From the NCBI GenBank assembly GCA_002839355.1, contig PGXW01000006.1, positions 29,879 through 93,878 of the forward strand: 64,000 nucleotides of DNA, read 5' to 3'. Numbering within the stretch: the first letter of the stretch is position 1; each line of letters starts with the position of its first letter. The position numbers were made by a program, and so were the translations under genes. The DNA comes from Spirochaetae bacterium HGW-Spirochaetae-2 (GTDB lineage Bacteria > Spirochaetota > Spirochaetia > Sphaerochaetales > Sphaerochaetaceae). The notes under the pieces were generated by a model, which was not told where the DNA came from, made no database searches, and saw only the letters and a program-made list of their open reading frames with translations. Positions 15,271 to 25,309 of this stretch are shown one piece after another.

Positions 15271-17889
15271 TTGCCATTACCAAGGGGATCTGTCATATTA
15301 ATTCGAAGAAGTAATCAAAGTACTGCATCGCTGGAGACGACCGCACTACCGCTAAAGGAATGCCTTGCAAAAGTCGTGGTAGATGATAATTGTAAAGCCT
15401 TTCCAGGTATTGATGTTGAGACTCACTGTACAATCGTCGGATTGGTTGCGAAGGAGCTAGTTGATAGAATTCCTCCTATTGTCAGGGAAGCATTGTTCCC
15501 TAAAGGTGTCGAACTGATTGCCGCTGTACACGACATAGGAAAAGTGAATCCACATTTCCAAAAAAAATTGCACAGGCTCCTGCCTTTCTCTGTGCCCAAC
15601 AGTGACGCTGCCCTGAAATATGCCAAACCAGAGCTTGAAAAGAATATCGGGATGCATGGTGGGGTCAGCCAAGTCGCCTTGGATGGCGTTGGTCCTTTCA
15701 TTCCTGAGATAGCGGGAATGCATCACGGATCATCTCCCGATGGGCTCTTTCTCCTTCCGGAAGACGCTTTGCTTGGAGGAGCTGTCTGGCAGAAGGCTAG
15801 GATGGAATTGGTTGCACATCTGAAAGAATATTTCCAAACGGATTGGCCGACAATTAATAACAACACCCAAGCTGCAGTGATTGCAGGTCTGACAACTGTT
15901 GCGGATTGGATTGGATCCGGCCCCATTTTCGAGCAACTGTCAATCATCGATCCGGTGCAATTTAAAACCAATGTTCGTGCTGCTGTCGACCGTGCAGGAT
16001 TCATATCTCCGATACTGAACAGAGGCCTCTCTTTTGAAGCAGTATTTCCTCCCTTCTCAGCAAGACCGATACAAAGTGCCTTATATGAAAGTGTTCAGGG
16101 TCCTGGCGTTTATATTCTTGAAGCTTTGATGGGATCGGGCAAGACTGAGGCGGCCCTCTATGCAGCATATCGGATGATGGAGTCTGGCCAAGCGAATGGC
16201 ATTTACTTCGCATTGCCCACAAGGATTACATCCGAGAGGATCCAAGTAAGGATGAATAGATTCCTCAATGCAATACTCTCACCCGAGGATAGTCACAAGT
16301 CGCTTCTTGCACATGGGTCGGCTTGGATGACCGACTCCGATATGGGAGAGAATGCACGCCCTGGGTATGATTGGTTCGATTCTCGGAAGCGAAAACTCTT
16401 GGCACCCTTTGCAGTGGGTACGATTGACCAGGCCTTAATGGCAGTGATGAACGTCAGGCACGGATTTGTACGTACCTTCGGCTTGGCGGGCAAGGTCGTG
16501 ATTCTCGATGAGGTCCATACCTATGATGCCTATACGGGAACCATCATGGACAACCTCATCAGGGCCTTGCGTGAAATGGGTTCGACCGTGATCCTTTTGA
16601 GCGCAACCCTAACGGCAGAACGAAAACTGCATTTCCTGACCGATGGATACGAAAAACCAGAAAATATCTTGTTGTCACATTACCCACTTGTTTCCAAATC
16701 GATCGTCGGGCAAAGCATCGAATATTCGCCGTCCGTGGAACAGTCGCAACACAACGTGCAAATTTCACTAATAAACGATGAAGACGATCTATTGGAGACC
16801 GTCCGAGCAAAAGCCTTGGCAGGGGAGTATGTGCTTTGGATAGAGAATACCGTCCAAGAAGCCCAAATGGCTTTCAAATCGTTTGCCAGTTGGGGCTATG
16901 CGAATGACGTCCAAGTGGGTTTGATCCATTCAAGATTTCCTATGACCAGACGGAGTGAACTTGAATCCTATTGGGTCGAAGCGTACGGAAAAGAGGGCAT
17001 ATCCAAACGCAAAGGTATTGGGAGGGTACTTGTTGGCACACAAGTATTGGAGCAATCCTTAGACCTTGATGCCGATCTCTTGATTACCCGGATTGCTCCG
17101 ATGGATATGATTTTGCAACGGATTGGCAGGCTGTGGCGGCATCGTGAGATAGATGGAATTCGACCGAATGGAGCCAACAGGCATGCGATCATACTCGCTC
17201 CGAATCTGGAATATTCATTGAAGAATCCACTGTGGGCATTCGGTCCAAGTGGCAGGGTATATGCCCCTTATGTTTTGGTCAGAAGTTTGCTTGTTCTCCA
17301 GGGAACCGACACAATAACTGTCCCCTCCGATATGCGGACACTCATTGAAGAGACATACCGTGAACGGATTGAAATGCTATCTCCTATGAACGAAGCGAAG
17401 CATGAAGTCGTCAAAAATCGGGAGACTCTTAAAAGCTTCGCCAACAACAGCATGACGATAATAGGAAAGGCCGCATCCGACACGATTGTGACCCGCTATT
17501 CAGAACTGGCGACGTGCGATGTGCTGTTATTACGGGACGGTTCGGATCTTGCACATGGATTGTTGGCACTAATCGATGGAGAGATTCTCCAAGTGCCGGG
17601 TTCAGCAAGTCTTGACTTACTTCAAAAAAAACAATTGGCCAAAGCCTGTATGCTTCGGATGATCACCGTACCCACCTATCTTGCTCCCGATCCAGTAAGC
17701 GCACAGGAACTTGTCAGTTTGCGACCCTTCCTCTATGTCTCGGATAGTGAGGAAGAGCGTCTTAGAGTCGCCGTACTGCATCCTAGTGGACGTATCCATG
17801 GCTTGTCAGGTAGGGAGGCGAATGAAAAATTTGAGTTGGAGTATTCTTCTTTGCTTGGATATGCAACGAAAAAAAAGGAGGGCCTATGA
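15271..17889 (+). CDS. cas3: CRISPR-associated nuclease-helicase Cas3 (type I-E)
   Basis: Up to 872 residues. The HD nuclease has His52 (VETHC), His87-Asp88 (VHDIGK) and GMHHG. The SF2 helicase has ALMGSGKTEAAL (about residue 288), LDEVHTYDAYTG (about 411), LLSATLT and QRIGRLWRH. Cas3 is recruited by Cascade to degrade target DNA. The N-terminus is uncertain: the TTG at 15271 has no ribosome site, whereas AAGGGGA (15282-15288) points to in-frame ATA at 15295, not a normal start codon. Its end overlaps cse1 by 4 nt. Confidence 0.93.
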   Translation: MPLPRGSVILIRRSNQSTASLETTALPLKECLAKVVVDDNCKAFPGIDVETHCTIVGLVAKELVDRIPPIVREALFPKGVELIAAVHDIGKVNPHFQKKLHRLLPFSVPNSDAALKYAKPELEKNIGMHGGVSQVALDGVGPFIPEIAGMHHGSSPDGLFLLPEDALLGGAVWQKARMELVAHLKEYFQTDWPTINNNTQAAVIAGLTTVADWIGSGPIFEQLSIIDPVQFKTNVRAAVDRAGFISPILNRGLSFEAVFPPFSARPIQSALYESVQGPGVYILEALMGSGKTEAALYAAYRMMESGQANGIYFALPTRITSERIQVRMNRFLNAILSPEDSHKSLLAHGSAWMTDSDMGENARPGYDWFDSRKRKLLAPFAVGTIDQALMAVMNVRHGFVRTFGLAGKVVILDEVHTYDAYTGTIMDNLIRALREMGSTVILLSATLTAERKLHFLTDGYEKPENILLSHYPLVSKSIVGQSIEYSPSVEQSQHNVQISLINDEDDLLETVRAKALAGEYVLWIENTVQEAQMAFKSFASWGYANDVQVGLIHSRFPMTRRSELESYWVEAYGKEGISKRKGIGRVLVGTQVLEQSLDLDADLLITRIAPMDMILQRIGRLWRHREIDGIRPNGANRHAIILAPNLEYSLKNPLWAFGPSGRVYAPYVLVRSLLVLQGTDTITVPSDMRTLIEETYRERIEMLSPMNEAKHEVVKNRETLKSFANNSMTIIGKAASDTIVTRYSELATCDVLLLRDGSDLAHGLLALIDGEILQVPGSASLDLLQKKQLAKACMLRMITVPTYLAPDPVSAQELVSLRPFLYVSDSEEERLRVAVLHPSGRIHGLSGREANEKFELEYSSLLGYATKKKEGL

Positions 17890-19397
17890 ATAATAGGTTC
17901 AATCTGGTGGATGAACCGTGGATACCTGTCGTCGACCATCCGAGGGTATCACTATTTGAATTGTTCAGTAATCCTGCGTTGAAGGCAATCGGTGGCAATG
18001 CTGTTCAAAAACTAGCTTTGCTAAAGCTGTTTTTGGCAATTGCACAAAGAGCCTATACTCCAATCGATGACCAAGACTGGCAAAATCTCGACAGTCTGGG
18101 ATTGGCAGCAAAGTGTTTGGAATATCTGAACAATCACAAGGATTTTTTCTGGTTGTATGGTAACAAGCCGTTTCTCCAAAAGCATGATCTGGAGGAGCGG
18201 AATACCAATAATGGAGACCCAATACCGGTAAGTATCCTTGGAAGGGACTACATGCCTGACTTGGCATCCGAGAACGATTCGATTCTGTTCGAATCCCAGA
18301 AAGAGCATTCGCTCTCAGACGCAGAGAAGGCAGTCTTTATCGTCACTTTGATGAACTATAGCCTCGGTGGCAAACGTGTGGCAAAGGGCGTCTCGCCCTG
18401 GACAGACGGTTATACAGGGAAAACGACCTCTGCAAAAGGTGCTCCAAGTATAGGCAACTACGAGGGGTACTTGAATTCCCACCTTCTAGGTGAATCCATC
18501 CTGGATACCATCTGGTTGAACCTGTTCACAAGGGATAAACTGGAAAAGTATCCTCAATGGAAGGATGACAATCTCATCCCTCCATGGGAAGAAATGCCCG
18601 CTGGCGAGGATGATCGAATAGCACGAAGGTTGAAGGGTAGTTTCATGTCAACACTCTGTGCCCTGAGCCGATTTGTGTTGCTTCAGGATGATGGAATCAT
18701 CTATGTCGAGGGATTGCAGTACCCGTCCCACAAAGACGGTTGGCGCGAACCTTTCATGACCTACACTTCCGATGGGAAAATACTTTGGTGCAATCCTGCG
18801 AAGAAACCATGGAGAAACCTTACCGCTTTACTCAGTACCGCTTTCAATGTGAGCAATTCAGCCTTTGATTGCCCACAAATCAGTCTGTTCCTCTTACGTG
18901 CACGTAAAGTAAGGAAAACAATCGGTATCTGGTCTGGAGGATTGAAGGTACGTACCACCGCTGGAGACACGTCTGTCAAACAAACCGATGACTATATCGA
19001 TACCGAAATATTCCTAAGGACAGATGACTTGGGTGATCCATGGTTTGCTAGCCTTGAGAATGAGATGCAAGCACTCGACCAACTCTCCAAATCACTTTGG
19101 ATCGCCGTGAACAGATATTATGAAGAATTGGGCAGCAAGCGGAATCCTGTCATCGACAAGGCACTTGAGATGTTCTGGGAACTATGCGAGCGACAGGCAC
19201 AGACTCTTGTGTATATTTGCGATGATGCACAGCAGAGACATCGTTTGCGGCTCACATTCGCAGACTATGCGAATCAAGCCTATAACAAATATTGTCCGAA
19301 TGATTCAGCTAGGCAGATGAGTGCGTGGGTACGGCATGCACCATACATTCTCAACTATATCGCTAAGAAATCAGAGGAGGTGCAACTTGCCAACTGA
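17886..19397 (+). CDS. cse1: Cascade large subunit Cse1 (CasA, Cas8e)
   Basis: A 503-residue protein opening with RFNLVDEPWIPV, the hallmark N-terminus of Cse1. This subunit recognises the PAM and recruits Cas3 in type I-E Cascade. Further support is the GKRVAKGVSPWTDGYTG region and its place directly after cas3 with a 4-nt overlap. Its end overlaps cse2 by 11 nt. The C-terminal four-helix bundle region is about residues 370-500. Confidence 0.95.
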   Translation: MNNRFNLVDEPWIPVVDHPRVSLFELFSNPALKAIGGNAVQKLALLKLFLAIAQRAYTPIDDQDWQNLDSLGLAAKCLEYLNNHKDFFWLYGNKPFLQKHDLEERNTNNGDPIPVSILGRDYMPDLASENDSILFESQKEHSLSDAEKAVFIVTLMNYSLGGKRVAKGVSPWTDGYTGKTTSAKGAPSIGNYEGYLNSHLLGESILDTIWLNLFTRDKLEKYPQWKDDNLIPPWEEMPAGEDDRIARRLKGSFMSTLCALSRFVLLQDDGIIYVEGLQYPSHKDGWREPFMTYTSDGKILWCNPAKKPWRNLTALLSTAFNVSNSAFDCPQISLFLLRARKVRKTIGIWSGGLKVRTTAGDTSVKQTDDYIDTEIFLRTDDLGDPWFASLENEMQALDQLSKSLWIAVNRYYEELGSKRNPVIDKALEMFWELCERQAQTLVYICDDAQQRHRLRLTFADYANQAYNKYCPNDSARQMSAWVRHAPYILNYIAKKSEEVQLAN

Positions 19398-19905
19398 TAG
19401 GAGCGTCAACTTTGTCAATTATGTGATCAAAGAAGTCACTGATGACAGGGGAAAGGGCTTTGGAGCAAAATTGCGTAAAGCCGATAATGAGAACACGGAA
19501 TATCAAAGCTGGGAAATTTTGTCGAGATGGGTGAATCTCGAATGGGAAAGCGACAGGAAGGCCTTCGCTTTGATAGGGGCAAGTATAGCGAGGGTAAAAC
19601 CTGTCGCGGATGGAAAACTCTCCATTGGTGAAGCGCTGCGTATGGTTCACCTGAAGGACAAGGATATCGGGGACCTGGAAAAATCCTCCTCGGCACTTCG
19701 CTTGAGACGCATCCTTGCGTGTAAGGAAAAGGATGAGCTCATGGATATCCTCAAACCTGTTGTCAGGTATGTGGAATCGAGTGGTCTTCTTCTGCAACAA
19801 GCCCGATTGCTTGATGAAATCCTGTGGTTCAACAACGATGAGAGCCGTGAAAGGACCAGGGCAAAGTGGGCACGGGATTTCTTCAGAAAAAAGGAGGAAT
19901 CATGA
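19387..19905 (+). CDS. cse2: Cascade small subunit Cse2 (CasB)
   Basis: A 172-residue, charged, mainly helical protein with RLRRILACKEKDEL and WARDFFRKK, matching Cse2, which stabilises the R-loop along the crRNA-DNA duplex as a dimer. I start it at the TTG at 19387, preceded by GAGGAGG with 7-nt spacing; the frame is open 22 more codons upstream inside cse1. The next gene overlaps its stop by 4 nt. Confidence 0.88.
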   Translation: MPTDRSVNFVNYVIKEVTDDRGKGFGAKLRKADNENTEYQSWEILSRWVNLEWESDRKAFALIGASIARVKPVADGKLSIGEALRMVHLKDKDIGDLEKSSSALRLRRILACKEKDELMDILKPVVRYVESSGLLLQQARLLDEILWFNNDESRERTRAKWARDFFRKKEES

Positions 19906-20522
19906 TTGCTTCCGTAGTATCACTGGATAGGCAGGCTATACAATCGTTGAAGATTGCCGACCCATATACAATACACAAATTCGTATACAGTCTGTTTCCA
20001 GGCAACCGACGTCAATTTCTTTATTATGACCAAGGAGGAGATTTGCGTTTCAAGCGGATACTGTTGGTGTCCCAGGAACAACCCCTTGTCCCGGAAATTG
20101 GAAAGATAGAATCAAAGTTCATCCCTGATAGTTTCCTTGACCACCAACGGTACGCATTCCAAGTCTTGCTGAATCCGGTGGAACAGCCATCTGGAAGCAA
20201 TAGAAAGGTGCCTGTTGTCAATAAGGAATCATTACGCGTTTGGTTTTCGCGACGTCAAGAGTCATGGGGTTTTACCACAGACATTGATATGCTCGAAATA
20301 TTCAATATGGGGGTTCAGATATCCCGAAAAAATGGAATGGACGTAACCCACAACATGGCGGAGTTCCGAGGAATCCTCGATGTGGCTGACCGTGAATGCT
20401 TTATCCACAGTTTCACCGATGGCATTGGAAGGGGAAAGGCATTTGGTTTCGGATTATTGCAATTACGACCACTAAAAATAATTAAAAGGAGAAATTGTCA
20501 TGGACAATACGTACAAAGGTAA
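19902..20522 (+). CDS. cas6e: crRNA-processing endoribonuclease Cas6e (CasE)
   Basis: A 206-residue RAMP protein that cuts pre-crRNA at the repeat hairpin and stays in Cascade. Tyr22 and His25 (YTIHKF) have the same spacing as the catalytic pair of Thermus Cas6e, and the C-terminal glycine-rich loop GIGRGKAFGFGLLQL is typical. The ATG at 19902 follows AGGAGG. Unlike the E. coli order, it lies between cse2 and cas7. It overlaps cas7 by 23 nt, so the genes are tightly coupled. Confidence 0.92.
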   Translation: MIASVVSLDRQAIQSLKIADPYTIHKFVYSLFPGNRRQFLYYDQGGDLRFKRILLVSQEQPLVPEIGKIESKFIPDSFLDHQRYAFQVLLNPVEQPSGSNRKVPVVNKESLRVWFSRRQESWGFTTDIDMLEIFNMGVQISRKNGMDVTHNMAEFRGILDVADRECFIHSFTDGIGRGKAFGFGLLQLRPLKIIKRRNCHGQYVQR

Positions 20523-21555
20523 GAAATTAGAGTTTCATATACTGCAGAGTTTTCCAGTCACCTGTTTGAACAGGGATGATGTCGGAGCCCCAAAGACAGC
20601 GATAGTGGGAGGTGTCACACGAGCTCGTGTCAGCAGCCAGGCTTGGAAAAGACAAGTCCGGTTGGCAATGCATGATTTCGGAATCAAGCTTGCCGTGCGG
20701 ACGAAATTCGTGGAAGACAAGATAGCCCGTCTCTGTATTGAGGATGGGGCGAACGAAGAGGTTGCGAAGGAAATCTCCAATGTGATTGCGGCTTTACTTA
20801 CCAAGGACACCTTGCATTTCTTTACTGATACCGAGGCGAGAGCACTCGCTACATATGCGCAGGGTGTTGGTTATGATAAGCAGAAAGTTAAGGATAAGGA
20901 AGTTTCAAAATGTCAAAGGGAAGCTCTGGGCAAGAGCCTTCAAAACCTTGAAGGTTTGGATATTGCCTTGTTTGGTAGGATGGTAGCGCAAGCGACCGAC
21001 TTGAATATCGAGGCGGCTGCATCGTTCTCCCATGCGATCTCAACTCACAAGGCAACCTCCGAGGTCGAATTCTTTACCGCCTTGGATGATGAAAAGCCTG
21101 AAGCGATGGCCGATTCCGGTTCCTCGCATATGGGTAGTCTTGAATTTAATTCTGCTACGTATTACCGCTATGTAAGTCTTGATCTCGGGCAACTGGTGAA
21201 TACCCTTGGAGGTGACGAGCAGCTTGACAAGGCAATCGACGCTTTCGTCAAGGCTCTCTATGTAGCTGTCCCCTATGCGAGGCAGGCAACCCAATCGGGA
21301 AGCAACCTATGGGACTATGCACGTGTTTCGGTGAGAAGAGGTCAGCGAGTCCAGGCATCGTTTGACGACCCTGTAAAGGCAAAGGGTGAAGGATTCTTGA
21401 AACCCAGCATTGAAGCCTTGGATTCATTCCTGGACAAGAGGGAGAAGCTCTCAGGCTCACTGTATGGCAAGATTGCTGAATTCCGGTGGGGCGTTGATGA
21501 GAATTTCAGTATTGATGGCCTGATTGAAGGTATCCAGAAATCAATAAGAGGATGA
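20500..21555 (+). CDS. cas7: Cascade backbone subunit Cas7 (CasC, Cse4)
   Basis: A 351-residue protein with the Cse4 signature LEFHILQSFPVTCLNRDDVGAPK and RARVSSQAWKR near the N-terminus, followed by SATYYRYVSLDLGQL and QSGSNLWDYARV. Six copies normally coat the crRNA in type I-E Cascade. The ATG at 20500 follows AAAGGAGA, inside the end of cas6e. Confidence 0.95.
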   Translation: MDNTYKGKKLEFHILQSFPVTCLNRDDVGAPKTAIVGGVTRARVSSQAWKRQVRLAMHDFGIKLAVRTKFVEDKIARLCIEDGANEEVAKEISNVIAALLTKDTLHFFTDTEARALATYAQGVGYDKQKVKDKEVSKCQREALGKSLQNLEGLDIALFGRMVAQATDLNIEAAASFSHAISTHKATSEVEFFTALDDEKPEAMADSGSSHMGSLEFNSATYYRYVSLDLGQLVNTLGGDEQLDKAIDAFVKALYVAVPYARQATQSGSNLWDYARVSVRRGQRVQASFDDPVKAKGEGFLKPSIEALDSFLDKREKLSGSLYGKIAEFRWGVDENFSIDGLIEGIQKSIRG

Positions 21556-21556
21556 A

Positions 21557-22288
21557 ATGGGTATGAGATATCTCCTGTTATGGTTGGAAGGGCCGTTGCA
21601 GTCCTGGGGTTTTGATTCGAAGTTTGGAAGACGAGAGAGTCTGAGGTTCCCAACAAAGTCTGGTATATTCGGCATGTTCCTCGCTGCCCTTGGTGCACAG
21701 GGACCACAAATCGACCTTCTGAATAAGTTGGCTGCTTTCAAGCAGACAGTGATTTCCTGCGTTCCTCGAAAACCTTGGAAGAAGAATGATCTGGATACTG
21801 ATGTGAGGTTGCAGTCCAATCCTTTCTTGATGGATTTCCAAATGGTAGGAAGCGGGTACGATGAAAAAGATCCGTGGCAGAAGATGCTGATTCCAAAAAA
21901 GAGTGATGGTAATCCAGCTGTCGGAGGTGGATCGAAGATGACCTACCGATACTATCTACAGGATGCAAGGTTCGCCGTTATTCAAGAGTTGGATAACGTA
22001 ATGGCTGATACCATTGCAAGTGCACTTCAGTCTCCCGTATTTGACGTATCCCTCGGTAGGAAAAACTGCGTTCCGACTGATTTCATCTATCGGGGTACAT
22101 TCGGTTCATTCGAAGAAGCCTCTACCATGGCTGAATCACTGATGGGTGAAAAAGACCTGGAAGTATCGTTCACGGTTAAAGATGAGGAGGTCGAAGGTGA
22201 CCGGATAGTTCTACATGACGTGCCACTACAGTTTGGGCAGTTCAAGAAATATCGGGACCGTACGGTGACCATAATTCAAAATGATTGA
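21557..22288 (+). CDS. cas5: Cascade subunit Cas5 (CasD)
   Basis: A 243-residue RAMP protein with the N-terminal LLLWLEGPLQSWG and RRESLRFPTKSGIFGMF motifs of type I-E Cas5, which holds the 5' handle of the crRNA. It begins 1 nt after the cas7 stop and its end overlaps cas1 by 8 nt. Confidence 0.94.
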   Translation: MGMRYLLLWLEGPLQSWGFDSKFGRRESLRFPTKSGIFGMFLAALGAQGPQIDLLNKLAAFKQTVISCVPRKPWKKNDLDTDVRLQSNPFLMDFQMVGSGYDEKDPWQKMLIPKKSDGNPAVGGGSKMTYRYYLQDARFAVIQELDNVMADTIASALQSPVFDVSLGRKNCVPTDFIYRGTFGSFEEASTMAESLMGEKDLEVSFTVKDEEVEGDRIVLHDVPLQFGQFKKYRDRTVTIIQND

Positions 22289-23144
22289 CTCGACAGGAAT
22301 TGGAAAGCGGCTATTCATAAAGGTCCAACGGAACAACCTCCCACAAGTTTGCGACAAATATCCGTTTATCTACTTGGAACGTGGAAGGTTGGAGATTGAT
22401 GACAGCAGCGTGAAGTGGATCGATTCGGATGGCAATCTGGTACGGCTCCCTGTAGCTACAATCAATTGTTTGCTGCTGGGACCAGGAACAAGTGTGACTC
22501 ATGAAGCGGTAAAGGTCCTGGCGGCTGCCAACTGTGGTGTCTGTTGGGTCGGTGAGGACAGCCTGTTGTTTTATGCAGTAGGCCAGAGTCCTACCGCAGA
22601 TACGAGGAACATGCGTAAGCAAATTGAACTGGCAGCTCATGATAAAAAAAGGTTGGAAGTTGCCAGAAGGATGTTTTTGAAACGGTTCCCCGAGGAAGAA
22701 GTAATTACCAAGACTCTTAATGAACTTATGGGAATGGAGGGGAAACGGGTGCGAGCCTCGTATGATGAGTATGCACAGAAATATAAAGTCGGGTGGGGTG
22801 GCCGCTCATATGTTCCAGGGAAGTTTGAGATGAGTGATTTGACCAACAGCATACTAACGTCGGCAAATGCTGCGTTGTATGGAATCCTCACATCAGCTAT
22901 CTACTCTATGGGCTTTTCTCCACACATCGGATTCGTTCACTCTGGAAGTCCGCTGCCTTTCGTCTACGATATGGCCGATTTGTATAAGGAGGTACTCTGT
23001 ATTGACCTTGCTTTCTCATTGACTGTGGAAATGTGCGGACAATACAACAAGTACAAGGTTGCTGAAGAGTTTCGTACCAGGGTTATCGAAATGGACTTAT
23101 TGAAAAGAATCGGAGACGATATCAGAACCGTATTAGGAATATAA
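22281..23144 (+). CDS. cas1: CRISPR spacer integrase Cas1
   Basis: A 287-residue type I-E Cas1. The metal-binding residues are in place: Glu153 (MGMEGKR), His220 (GFVHSGS), Asp230 and Asp233 (VYDMAD). With Cas2 it captures protospacers and inserts them at the leader end of the array. Integrity of the catalytic residues suggests that adaptation can still work. It overlaps cas5 and is followed by cas2 after 2 nt. Confidence 0.96.
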   Translation: MIDSTGIGKRLFIKVQRNNLPQVCDKYPFIYLERGRLEIDDSSVKWIDSDGNLVRLPVATINCLLLGPGTSVTHEAVKVLAAANCGVCWVGEDSLLFYAVGQSPTADTRNMRKQIELAAHDKKRLEVARRMFLKRFPEEEVITKTLNELMGMEGKRVRASYDEYAQKYKVGWGGRSYVPGKFEMSDLTNSILTSANAALYGILTSAIYSMGFSPHIGFVHSGSPLPFVYDMADLYKEVLCIDLAFSLTVEMCGQYNKYKVAEEFRTRVIEMDLLKRIGDDIRTVLGI

Positions 23145-23146
23145 GC

Positions 23147-23443
23147 ATGGTTGTAGTTATTGCGAATGACTTACCACCAGCAGTGAGAGGTCGAATGAAG
23201 CTCTGGTTTGTCGAAGCGAGGGCAAATGTATTTGTCTCAGGAATCAAGGATGCTGTTGCTGATCGGGTCATTACCTATTTGTTCCAAAGTTGTAGAAATA
23301 ATTCAGGCTTGTTGGTGTTCCAGAAAATTTCCACCCCGCCTTATTATAAAATTTGGGGTATGGGCGATACCAAACATAAAATATCGATAATCGATGGATT
23401 ACAACTGGTTTTTGAAAAATTAGAGAAGGATAACAACCACTAG
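23147..23443 (+). CDS. cas2: CRISPR adaptation protein Cas2 (type I-E)
   Basis: A 98-residue protein of the CasF-type Cas2 family: VVVIANDLPPAVRGRMKLWFVEARANVFVS is shared in kind with E. coli Cas2. It bridges two Cas1 dimers in the spacer integration complex. It ends 40 nt before the first CRISPR repeat. Confidence 0.93.
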   Translation: MVVVIANDLPPAVRGRMKLWFVEARANVFVSGIKDAVADRVITYLFQSCRNNSGLLVFQKISTPPYYKIWGMGDTKHKISIIDGLQLVFEKLEKDNNH

Positions 23444-23483
23444 ATATAGAGTAGTGATTAAAGGTATAACACTAATTGTCAGT
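23444..23483 (+). promoter_or_regulatory. CRISPR leader
   Basis: Forty A+T-rich bases lie between the cas2 stop and repeat 1. This is short for a leader, so the array promoter may be within cas2 or further upstream. Its position next to cas2 marks the growing end of the array. Confidence 0.5.
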
Positions 23484-25036
23484 ATATTCCCCGCGTCTGC
23501 GGGGGTGTTTCCCGAAGAGGAACTTGAAGATTACACTGGGAAAAATATTCCCCGCGTCTGCGGGGGTGTTTCCGCTGGCACGTTATCACTCACGGGGAAT
23601 GGGTGATATTCCCCGCGTCTGCGGGGGTGTTTCTGGACAAGCCAAGTGGTTTGCAGACTATACTGTATATTCCCCGCGTCTGCGGGGGTGTTTCTCTTAT
23701 ACCTTCCATTAAAGATACACGCATCACATATTCCCCGCGTCTGCGGGGGTGTTTCCGGAAGTATCAAGCAAGACCGATGGGAGAAAGAATATTCCCCGCG
23801 TCTGCGGGGGTGTTTCCTGGGGAGTGACCCCCATCTGCTTGAAGATGTCATATTCCCCGCGTCTGCGGGGGTGTTTCCCACTATGTACCCCCTCAACCAT
23901 TATCACAACAATATTCCCCGCGTCTGCGGGAGTGTTTCTTGTTTCCAATGATTGCATGCGGATATGTAACAATATTCCCCGCATCTGCGGGGGTGTTTCT
24001 CATCTTCCCCGGAGATTGTAGTTACCCATCTTATATTCCCCGCGTCTGCGGGGGTGTTTCTGCACAAAATGCAATAACGGCATTACAGGCCGAATATTCC
24101 CCGCATCCGCGGAAGTGTTTCCTACGGCTGGGACCAACGAGGCGACTGCTGTCAGTATTCCCCGCATCCGCGGGGGTGTTTCCCACCTCGAGTTTGCTCC
24201 TCCCAAGGAGGTGTCATATTCCCCGCGTCTGCGGGGGTGTTTCCGCATCCCAGGTGCAGTATAGCGGAGGCAAGGAATATTCCCCGCGTCTGCGGGGGTG
24301 TTTCCAAGCTTGCCGGTGGTGTGATGACCATCGAGAAATATTCCCCGCGTCTGTGGGGGTGTTACTGCGTTCCTTGCATTCATCAGGACACGGGTTGTAT
24401 ATTCCCCGCGTCTGCGGGGGTGTTTCCTCGCCGGATGCCACAAGGTCCCTGATTGACGGATATTCCCCGCGTCTGCGGGGGTGTTTCCTCCTCCCATCCT
24501 ACGTGACCATCGAACAGACAATATTCCCCGCGTCTGCGGGGGTGTTTCCGGCATGGCCTCCAAGTTCCCGTCCACATCGTCATATTCCCCGCGTCTGCGG
24601 GGGTGTTTCCCTGTCGGGCTGGCAACTCAGGCGACGCGAGAGATATTCCCCGCGTCTGCGGGAGTGTTTCCTTTAAAAAGGGGAGTGCTATGGAACAGAA
24701 GTGATATTCCCCGCGTCTGCGGGGGTGTTTCTCCACCGGTGGTTCACTGCAGCTTGTTTCTTTCATATTCCCCGCGTCTGCGGGGGTGTTTCCCAGATGA
24801 GCGAGTCCGATTCCGTGACGCTCAAATATTCCCCGCGTCTGCGGGGGTGTTTCTCGTAGAAGATGGGTTCCTTCATTTCAATCGGTATATTCCCCGCGTC
24901 TGCGGGGGTGTTTCTCATACGCCAAGCGGGAACCAGCATCATGATGCATATTCCCCGCGTCTGCGGGGGTGTTTCTCATCGTACAGGAAAGTATCAGAAG
25001 ATTGAAAAGTATTCCCCGCATCCGCGGGGGTGTTTC
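23484..25036 (+). CRISPR. Type I-E CRISPR array, 26 repeats and 25 spacers
   Basis: Repeat units start at 23484 and recur every 61 nt without exception up to 25009. The 28-nt repeat has a 6-bp stem CCCCGC/GCGGGG around loop GTCT, preceded by ATATT and followed by GTGTTTC, like E. coli type I-E repeats in this orientation. Spacers are 33 nt by this count, or 32 nt plus a repeat-side base that is always C or T. Loop variants occur in repeats 9 (ATCT), 11, 12 and 26 (ATCC); repeats 8 and 20 share GGGAG; repeat 15 has GTG and GTTAC. Variants at the far end (repeat 26) fit the leader being on the cas2 side. Confidence 0.98.
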
Positions 25037-25309
25037 CCTATCCTGGTTGTGATGAAGAAATGGACACTTGCAACAGTCGTCCCTTAGAATCTACCTTCTT
25101 GTCAGTCAAAATGACAAGGAGACCAACCGGATACTGTTGAAAATGCCTCAGATAGAGTATAGCAAGAACATGTGGAGAGAGAAGCACCATTGCTGGGATC
25201 ATATCGAATTTGGATGATGGAGAAAGCCCTTTTGATTTGGTCCCGTGAGGTGCCCAGTGATTCGCAGCTTTCCTGCAACTATATTCTATGATGCGAAATC
25301 TGGCAGTTG
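25037..25309. other. Intergenic region between CRISPR array and mgtE
   Basis: No gene visible. A small hairpin (CTTGTCA / TGACAAG, near 25092-25115) may help end array or mgtE transcription, but neither side has a good U tract. Confidence 0.5.

Follow-up and report, generated by a model that had tools for sequence, protein, structure and literature searches.

Pyrimidine-first spacers and a probable AAY PAM in the type I-E CRISPR-Cas system of a Sphaerochaetaceae spirochaete

Our results show that all spacers of a CRISPR array carried by a Sphaerochaetaceae spirochaete begin with a pyrimidine, and the explanation, which we hold with high confidence, is that Cas1-Cas2 takes prespacers lying beside AAY, with the third PAM base entering the array after each repeat. 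The array lies in a 64,000-nucleotide stretch of DNA, hereafter the window, whose CRISPR-Cas locus is a complete type I-E system. The pyrimidine-first phenomenon itself has already been published for Vibrio cholerae, and the window adds a spirochaete to this known group. In the proposed mechanism, whose cutting and integration steps are borrowed from type I-E of Escherichia coli, Cas1-Cas2 would capture prespacers beside which the non-target strand reads 5'-AAC or 5'-AAT, equivalent to 5'-RTT-3' on the target strand. The PAM would then be cut between its second and third bases, as in E. coli, and the third base, a pyrimidine, would be integrated as the first base after the 28-nt repeat. Judging from the V. 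cholerae experiment, Cas8e would probably also demand the purine on the target strand.

Eight genes between 15271 and 23443 make up one operon and match type I-E NCBIfam models, or the Cas3 core model, over the cut-off (Table 1). In the Cas1e of the window, E. coli positions 170 and 211 are occupied by Phe and Ser and the C-terminal tail is absent, and the residues E141, H208, D218 and D221 are invariant across all 90 Cas1e aligned, that of the window included. When leaders were compared over 63 GTTTC arrays, the repeat-proximal end of the short leader was found to be conserved in the clade, reading ACACTAATTGTCAGT in the window and ACaAtATGTTGGT in the clade consensus. Some 30-45 bp before the first repeat, many leaders of GTGTTTC arrays also hold an inverted repeat similar to CACTAnATnTAGTG, which does not resemble the E. 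coli IHF site.

Table 1. The type I-E locus of the window: genes, leader, array and junction bases
Feature	Position in window	Strand	Basis or remark
cas3, 872 aa	15271..17889	+	NCBIfam TIGR01587 cas3_core, 189.7 bits, over cut-off
cas3 HD domain	within 15271..17889	+	TIGR01596, 43.3 bits, just below the 43.45 cut-off
cse1/cas8e, PAM-reading subunit in interference	17886..19397	+	TIGR02547, over cut-off
cse2/cas11	19321..19905	+	TIGR02548, over cut-off
cas6e	19866..20522	+	TIGR01907, over cut-off
cas7e	20500..21555	+	TIGR01869, over cut-off
cas5e	21557..22288	+	TIGR01868, over cut-off
cas1e	22281..23144	+	TIGR03638, 326 bits, over cut-off
cas2e	23147..23443	+	TIGR01873, over cut-off
Leader, 40 bp, between cas2e and first repeat	23444..23483	+	leader comparison over 63 GTTTC arrays
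CRISPR array, 26 repeats of 28 nt (ATATTCCCCGCGTCTGCGGGGGTGTTTC)	23484..25037	+	script recount
Pyrimidines, probably PAM-derived	first at 23512, then every 61 bp to 24976 (25 units); plus C at 25037	+	script

Each unit of the array is composed of a 28-nt repeat, the captured pyrimidine and 32 spacer bases, and a script count gave a repeat spacing of 61 bp throughout, with no exception. The array shows the palindromic repeats of 28-29 nt, the spacers of 32-33 nt and the 61-bp unit that mark type I-E, and no second array with this repeat was found in the 3.6-Mb genome. An earlier note on this DNA had described 29-nt repeats with 32-nt spacers over 23512-25009; its coordinates are correct to one base and its structure stands, but 28 + 33 is another convention for the same structure. 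The base 3' of GTGTTTC is C in 15 of the 25 units and T in the other 10 (script), so that the note's claim of 25 pyrimidine-first spacers is borne out. The repeat at 24339, which reads GTGTTAC instead of GTGTTTC, was counted along with the rest, and the base following the terminal (26th) repeat is C. Three repeats of the window, the inner ones at 24095 and 24156 and the terminal one at 25010, carry the variant CATCCGCGG, the main repeat form in the sister species of the same genus (G001), and both array forms therefore seem to be of common ancestry.

Chance or a coding bias in the targets would be one account of such a column, and we regard it as practically negligible. The earlier figure of 1 in 33 million corresponds to 2^-25; given the pyrimidine frequency of the spacers themselves (0.4725), the probability that all 25 would start with a pyrimidine is 7e-9, or 2.4e-7 once the 33 columns are allowed for. 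No restriction to one base class was found in the remaining spacer columns of the window array. We found no point in support of chance or coding bias, and count it as refuted, since the corrected probability is about 2e-7 and the pattern recurs in independent arrays from many phyla.

This recurrence was followed in arrays adjoining Cas1e, for which three sources were used: the family, 80 named genome contigs covering many phyla, and Enterobacteriaceae. The array of sister species G001, which has no spacer in common with the window, has pyrimidines at 24/24 junctions, and the purines that the earlier note had offered as a refutation are absent there. The second base after the repeat is A in 1/25 spacers of the window versus 12/24 in the sister array, probably by chance. 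Repeats ending in GTGTTTC are followed by a pyrimidine in 97.8% of 1,764 spacers (61 arrays), those ending in GTGATCC in 96.3% of 241 (8 arrays) and those ending in ATGTTTC in 89.5% (3 arrays); once duplicate loci are dropped, GTTTC repeats as a whole have a pyrimidine in 97.2% of 1,879 spacers, from 62 arrays. The base is G instead of a pyrimidine in 18 arrays with E. coli- or Akkermansia-type repeats, namely in ~97% of spacers after ATAAACC or ATGAACC (14 arrays of the E. coli type) and in 82/82 after ATGGTCC (4 arrays of the Akkermansia type). By its GTGTTTC repeat end and pyrimidine-first spacers, the window belongs to the AAY, V. cholerae-like group and falls outside the E. coli-like AAG group, in which a fixed G goes with Trp170 and Lys211, while the window has Y, Phe170 and Ser211. 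Three loci show intermediate specificities: a Streptomyces albidoflavus plasmid (L245; C22 G19 T1, with Phe170 and Ser211), a Bifidobacterium longum plasmid (L249; G8 T2 C2, with a gap at 170) and a Planctomycetia locus (L147; pyrimidine at 71/85 junctions).

The junction position directly adjoins the repeat, and for E. coli the junction base was initially taken as repeat sequence (PMC7677007). The pyrimidine could accordingly be the repeat's own last base, present as two alleles, C and T, and copied at repeat duplication. Copying would produce runs of C and T, but their order along 56 arrays is random, with 1027 adjacent equal pairs against 1028 +/- 20.5 after shuffling, and we count this as refuting. 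The share C/(C+T) also climbs with spacer GC across 46 arrays (Spearman rho 0.50, p 4e-4), and at matched sites the junction base is that of the target. Copying from the repeat is thus very improbable; the random order and the dependence on spacer GC argue that each base comes from its own prespacer. The earlier proposal that the last base derives from the PAM is supported accordingly, as the locus is of type I-E and the pyrimidine occupies the site of E. coli's PAM-derived G. All 4 of the 34-nt units with a purine in first place have a pyrimidine in second place. Flipped integration was considered as the origin of the rare purines and rejected, because a purine at the far end is not clearly enriched (31/53 vs 1108/1995).

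Targets were sought for the PAM itself, and the matching of spacers to phages and plasmids that the earlier note had suggested succeeded in the sister species G001 but yielded no target for the window's own 25 spacers. The latter were searched against phages, 101 relatives and the genomes of the genus, and six of them against viral contigs, without a target; their weak matches in relatives have at least 8 mismatches out of 33. Other spacers of the family, searched against 139 family genomes with few candidates scored per genome, gave nothing beyond the arrays and weak matches of 25 nt. Spacers of G001 had no match in phages, nor did two of them in viral contigs. Since the window spacers have no match, the PAM has to be deduced from the sister species, where four spacers hit genomes. 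Spacer 19 hits contig C51, part of the window's own genome, with 1 mismatch and the flank ATTCGGGGAA|T (GGAA|T), spacer 23 the same contig with 3 mismatches and CACTGAAGAA|C (AGAA|C), and spacer 24 genome G006 with 4 mismatches and ACGTGCGCAA|C (GCAA|C). Genome G165 has two homologous prophage sites that match spacer 14, one with 2 mismatches and one with 4, and their flanks read GAT|C and GAC|C; these are diverged homologues without AA. The same search with shuffled G001 spacers gave zero matches.

At all 5 matched sites of these 4 spacers the pyrimidine of the target is the spacer's own, and AA precedes it for 3 of the 4 spacers (P about 0.0005-0.002 at an AA frequency of 0.05-0.08), so that the flanks, which could have refuted the earlier prediction, carry the same pyrimidine. 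The earlier note's suggestion of a PAM that accepts either pyrimidine, unlike the AAG of E. coli, is supported as well; AA|T and AA|C both occur in the genus. The target region of C51 is a tailed-phage prophage coding for a DnaC-like loader, terminase, portal, head protease, major head protein and tape measure, together with tail genes. The whole element (G000:C51, ~50,000-80,000; L265, L266) looks complete and contains two AA|Y targets of the sister array; none of the window's spacers matches it. In Enterobacterales, arrays with repeats of the window's family match a conjugative-plasmid traI (AA|C, 0 mismatches), a plasmid mobF (AA|C, 4 mismatches) and a Klebsiella phage (CA|C, 3 mismatches). 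All matches but one contain mismatches, which leaves room for small differences in the true targets; going by these flanks, the PAM is most likely AAY.

It could also be argued that acquisition is indifferent at the junction base and that the pyrimidine is selected afterwards, because targets without the purine fail interference; conjugation experiments in V. cholerae did show that interference needs the target purine (PMC7677007). We consider this improbable. Old, inactive and mismatched spacers persist in arrays, yet ~97% of spacers start with a pyrimidine, and comparison of Cas1 sequences shows that the junction base follows the identity of a Cas1 residue. It is general knowledge that Cas1-Cas2 of E. 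coli picks the PAM during acquisition, independently of interference, which also speaks against later selection.

The relation with Cas1 was first noticed in 90 aligned loci and then extended to 106 loci with a scored junction base, where the plasmid loci added later agreed, including Streptomyces and Nocardia arrays with F170 and mainly C at the junction; one Bifidobacterium (gap at 170, mixed base) and one Variovorax with a truncated Cas1 were left out. Only two positions, 170 and 211 in E. coli numbering, separate G-capturing from pyrimidine-capturing loci without error. All 29 G loci have Trp at position 170, and the other 77, which include a Streptomyces array of mixed C and G, all have Phe, Met or Tyr there; position 211 is Lys, Gly or Asn with G and Ser or His in the remaining loci. 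In these sequences, the junction base tracks residue 170 without exception among the 106 loci, an association that is possibly new: no link between W170 and the PAM was found in the open literature searched, the original structure papers being outside that scope. In our trees, which are quick maximum-likelihood ones with long branches, two changes suffice for either trait and both are concordant, and with only two such changes the independent evidence is thin.

Simulations of the E. coli complex place Lys211 in contact with the complement of the third PAM base (PMC6395717). The E. coli Cas1 tail, which carries Gln287 and Ile291, touches the PAM complement. Lys211 alone was rejected as the determinant, because the Akkermansia group captures G with Gly211 and one Streptomyces does so with Asn211. 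The Cas1e of the GTGTTTC clade ends 0-9 residues past the last aligned residue of the window's and lacks the ~30-residue tail; this clade still orients its spacers, as the base lies at their repeat-proximal end in 97%. Loss of the tail was rejected as the cause of the pyrimidine, since the mostly tail-less Akkermansia-type Cas1 is paired with a fixed G. We tentatively suggest, with somewhat less than even confidence, that residue 170, together with 211, mainly sets the third PAM base, Trp leading to G and Phe, Tyr or Met to a pyrimidine, and that the GTGTTTC clade does so and orients spacers correctly without the tail.

For a spirochaete system that is uncharacterised, these results offer AAY as a PAM that can be put to use. 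Type I-E systems can be split into G-capturing and pyrimidine-capturing ones by a single base in each spacer, read off any array without protospacer matching, and comparison of that base with Cas1 sequences allows a hunt for residues of PAM specificity, among which position 170 is a candidate.

The closest known system is that of V. cholerae O395 (repeat GTCTTCCCCACGCAGGTGGGGGTGTTTC), which shares with the window the subtype, repeat family, 28 + 33 structure, pyrimidine-first spacers and AAY (RTT), and differs in host phylum and repeat details; interference was tested there, whereas the window is known from sequence (PMC7677007). In V. cholerae, 99.7% of 303 spacers have a 5' pyrimidine, the PAM 5'-RTT-3' was derived with 483 spacer-protospacer pairs, and the authors argue for 28-nt repeats and 33-nt spacers (PMC7677007). 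Klebsiella pneumoniae NTUH-K2044, also type I-E, is likened to the window by subtype and PAM. Acquisition there gave 5'-TTN-3' in 12/14 cases, and in its test constructs a spacer starting with C immediately follows NAA, which is AA|C in the present register; the study gives the PAM as TTN and offers no analysis of the first base as a PAM base carried by the spacer (PMC4987720). A PAM catalogue lists AAC, AAT, AAN and AAG among its type I-E entries and treats the PAM-derived repeat end for AAG only (PMC8482600). Type I-E systems with GTGATCC repeats, sampled here from Firmicutes and two Sphaerochaetaceae, have a pyrimidine at the same position, but their Cas1 forms a separate clade with His211 and a different C-terminal tail. 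E. coli K-12 shares with the window the gene set, hairpin repeat, 61-bp unit and a PAM-derived junction base; unlike the window, its junction base is G (PAM AAG), its repeat ends in ATAAACC, and where the Cas1 of the window has Phe, Ser and no tail, that of E. coli carries Trp170 and Lys211 and ends in a tail of ~30 aa.
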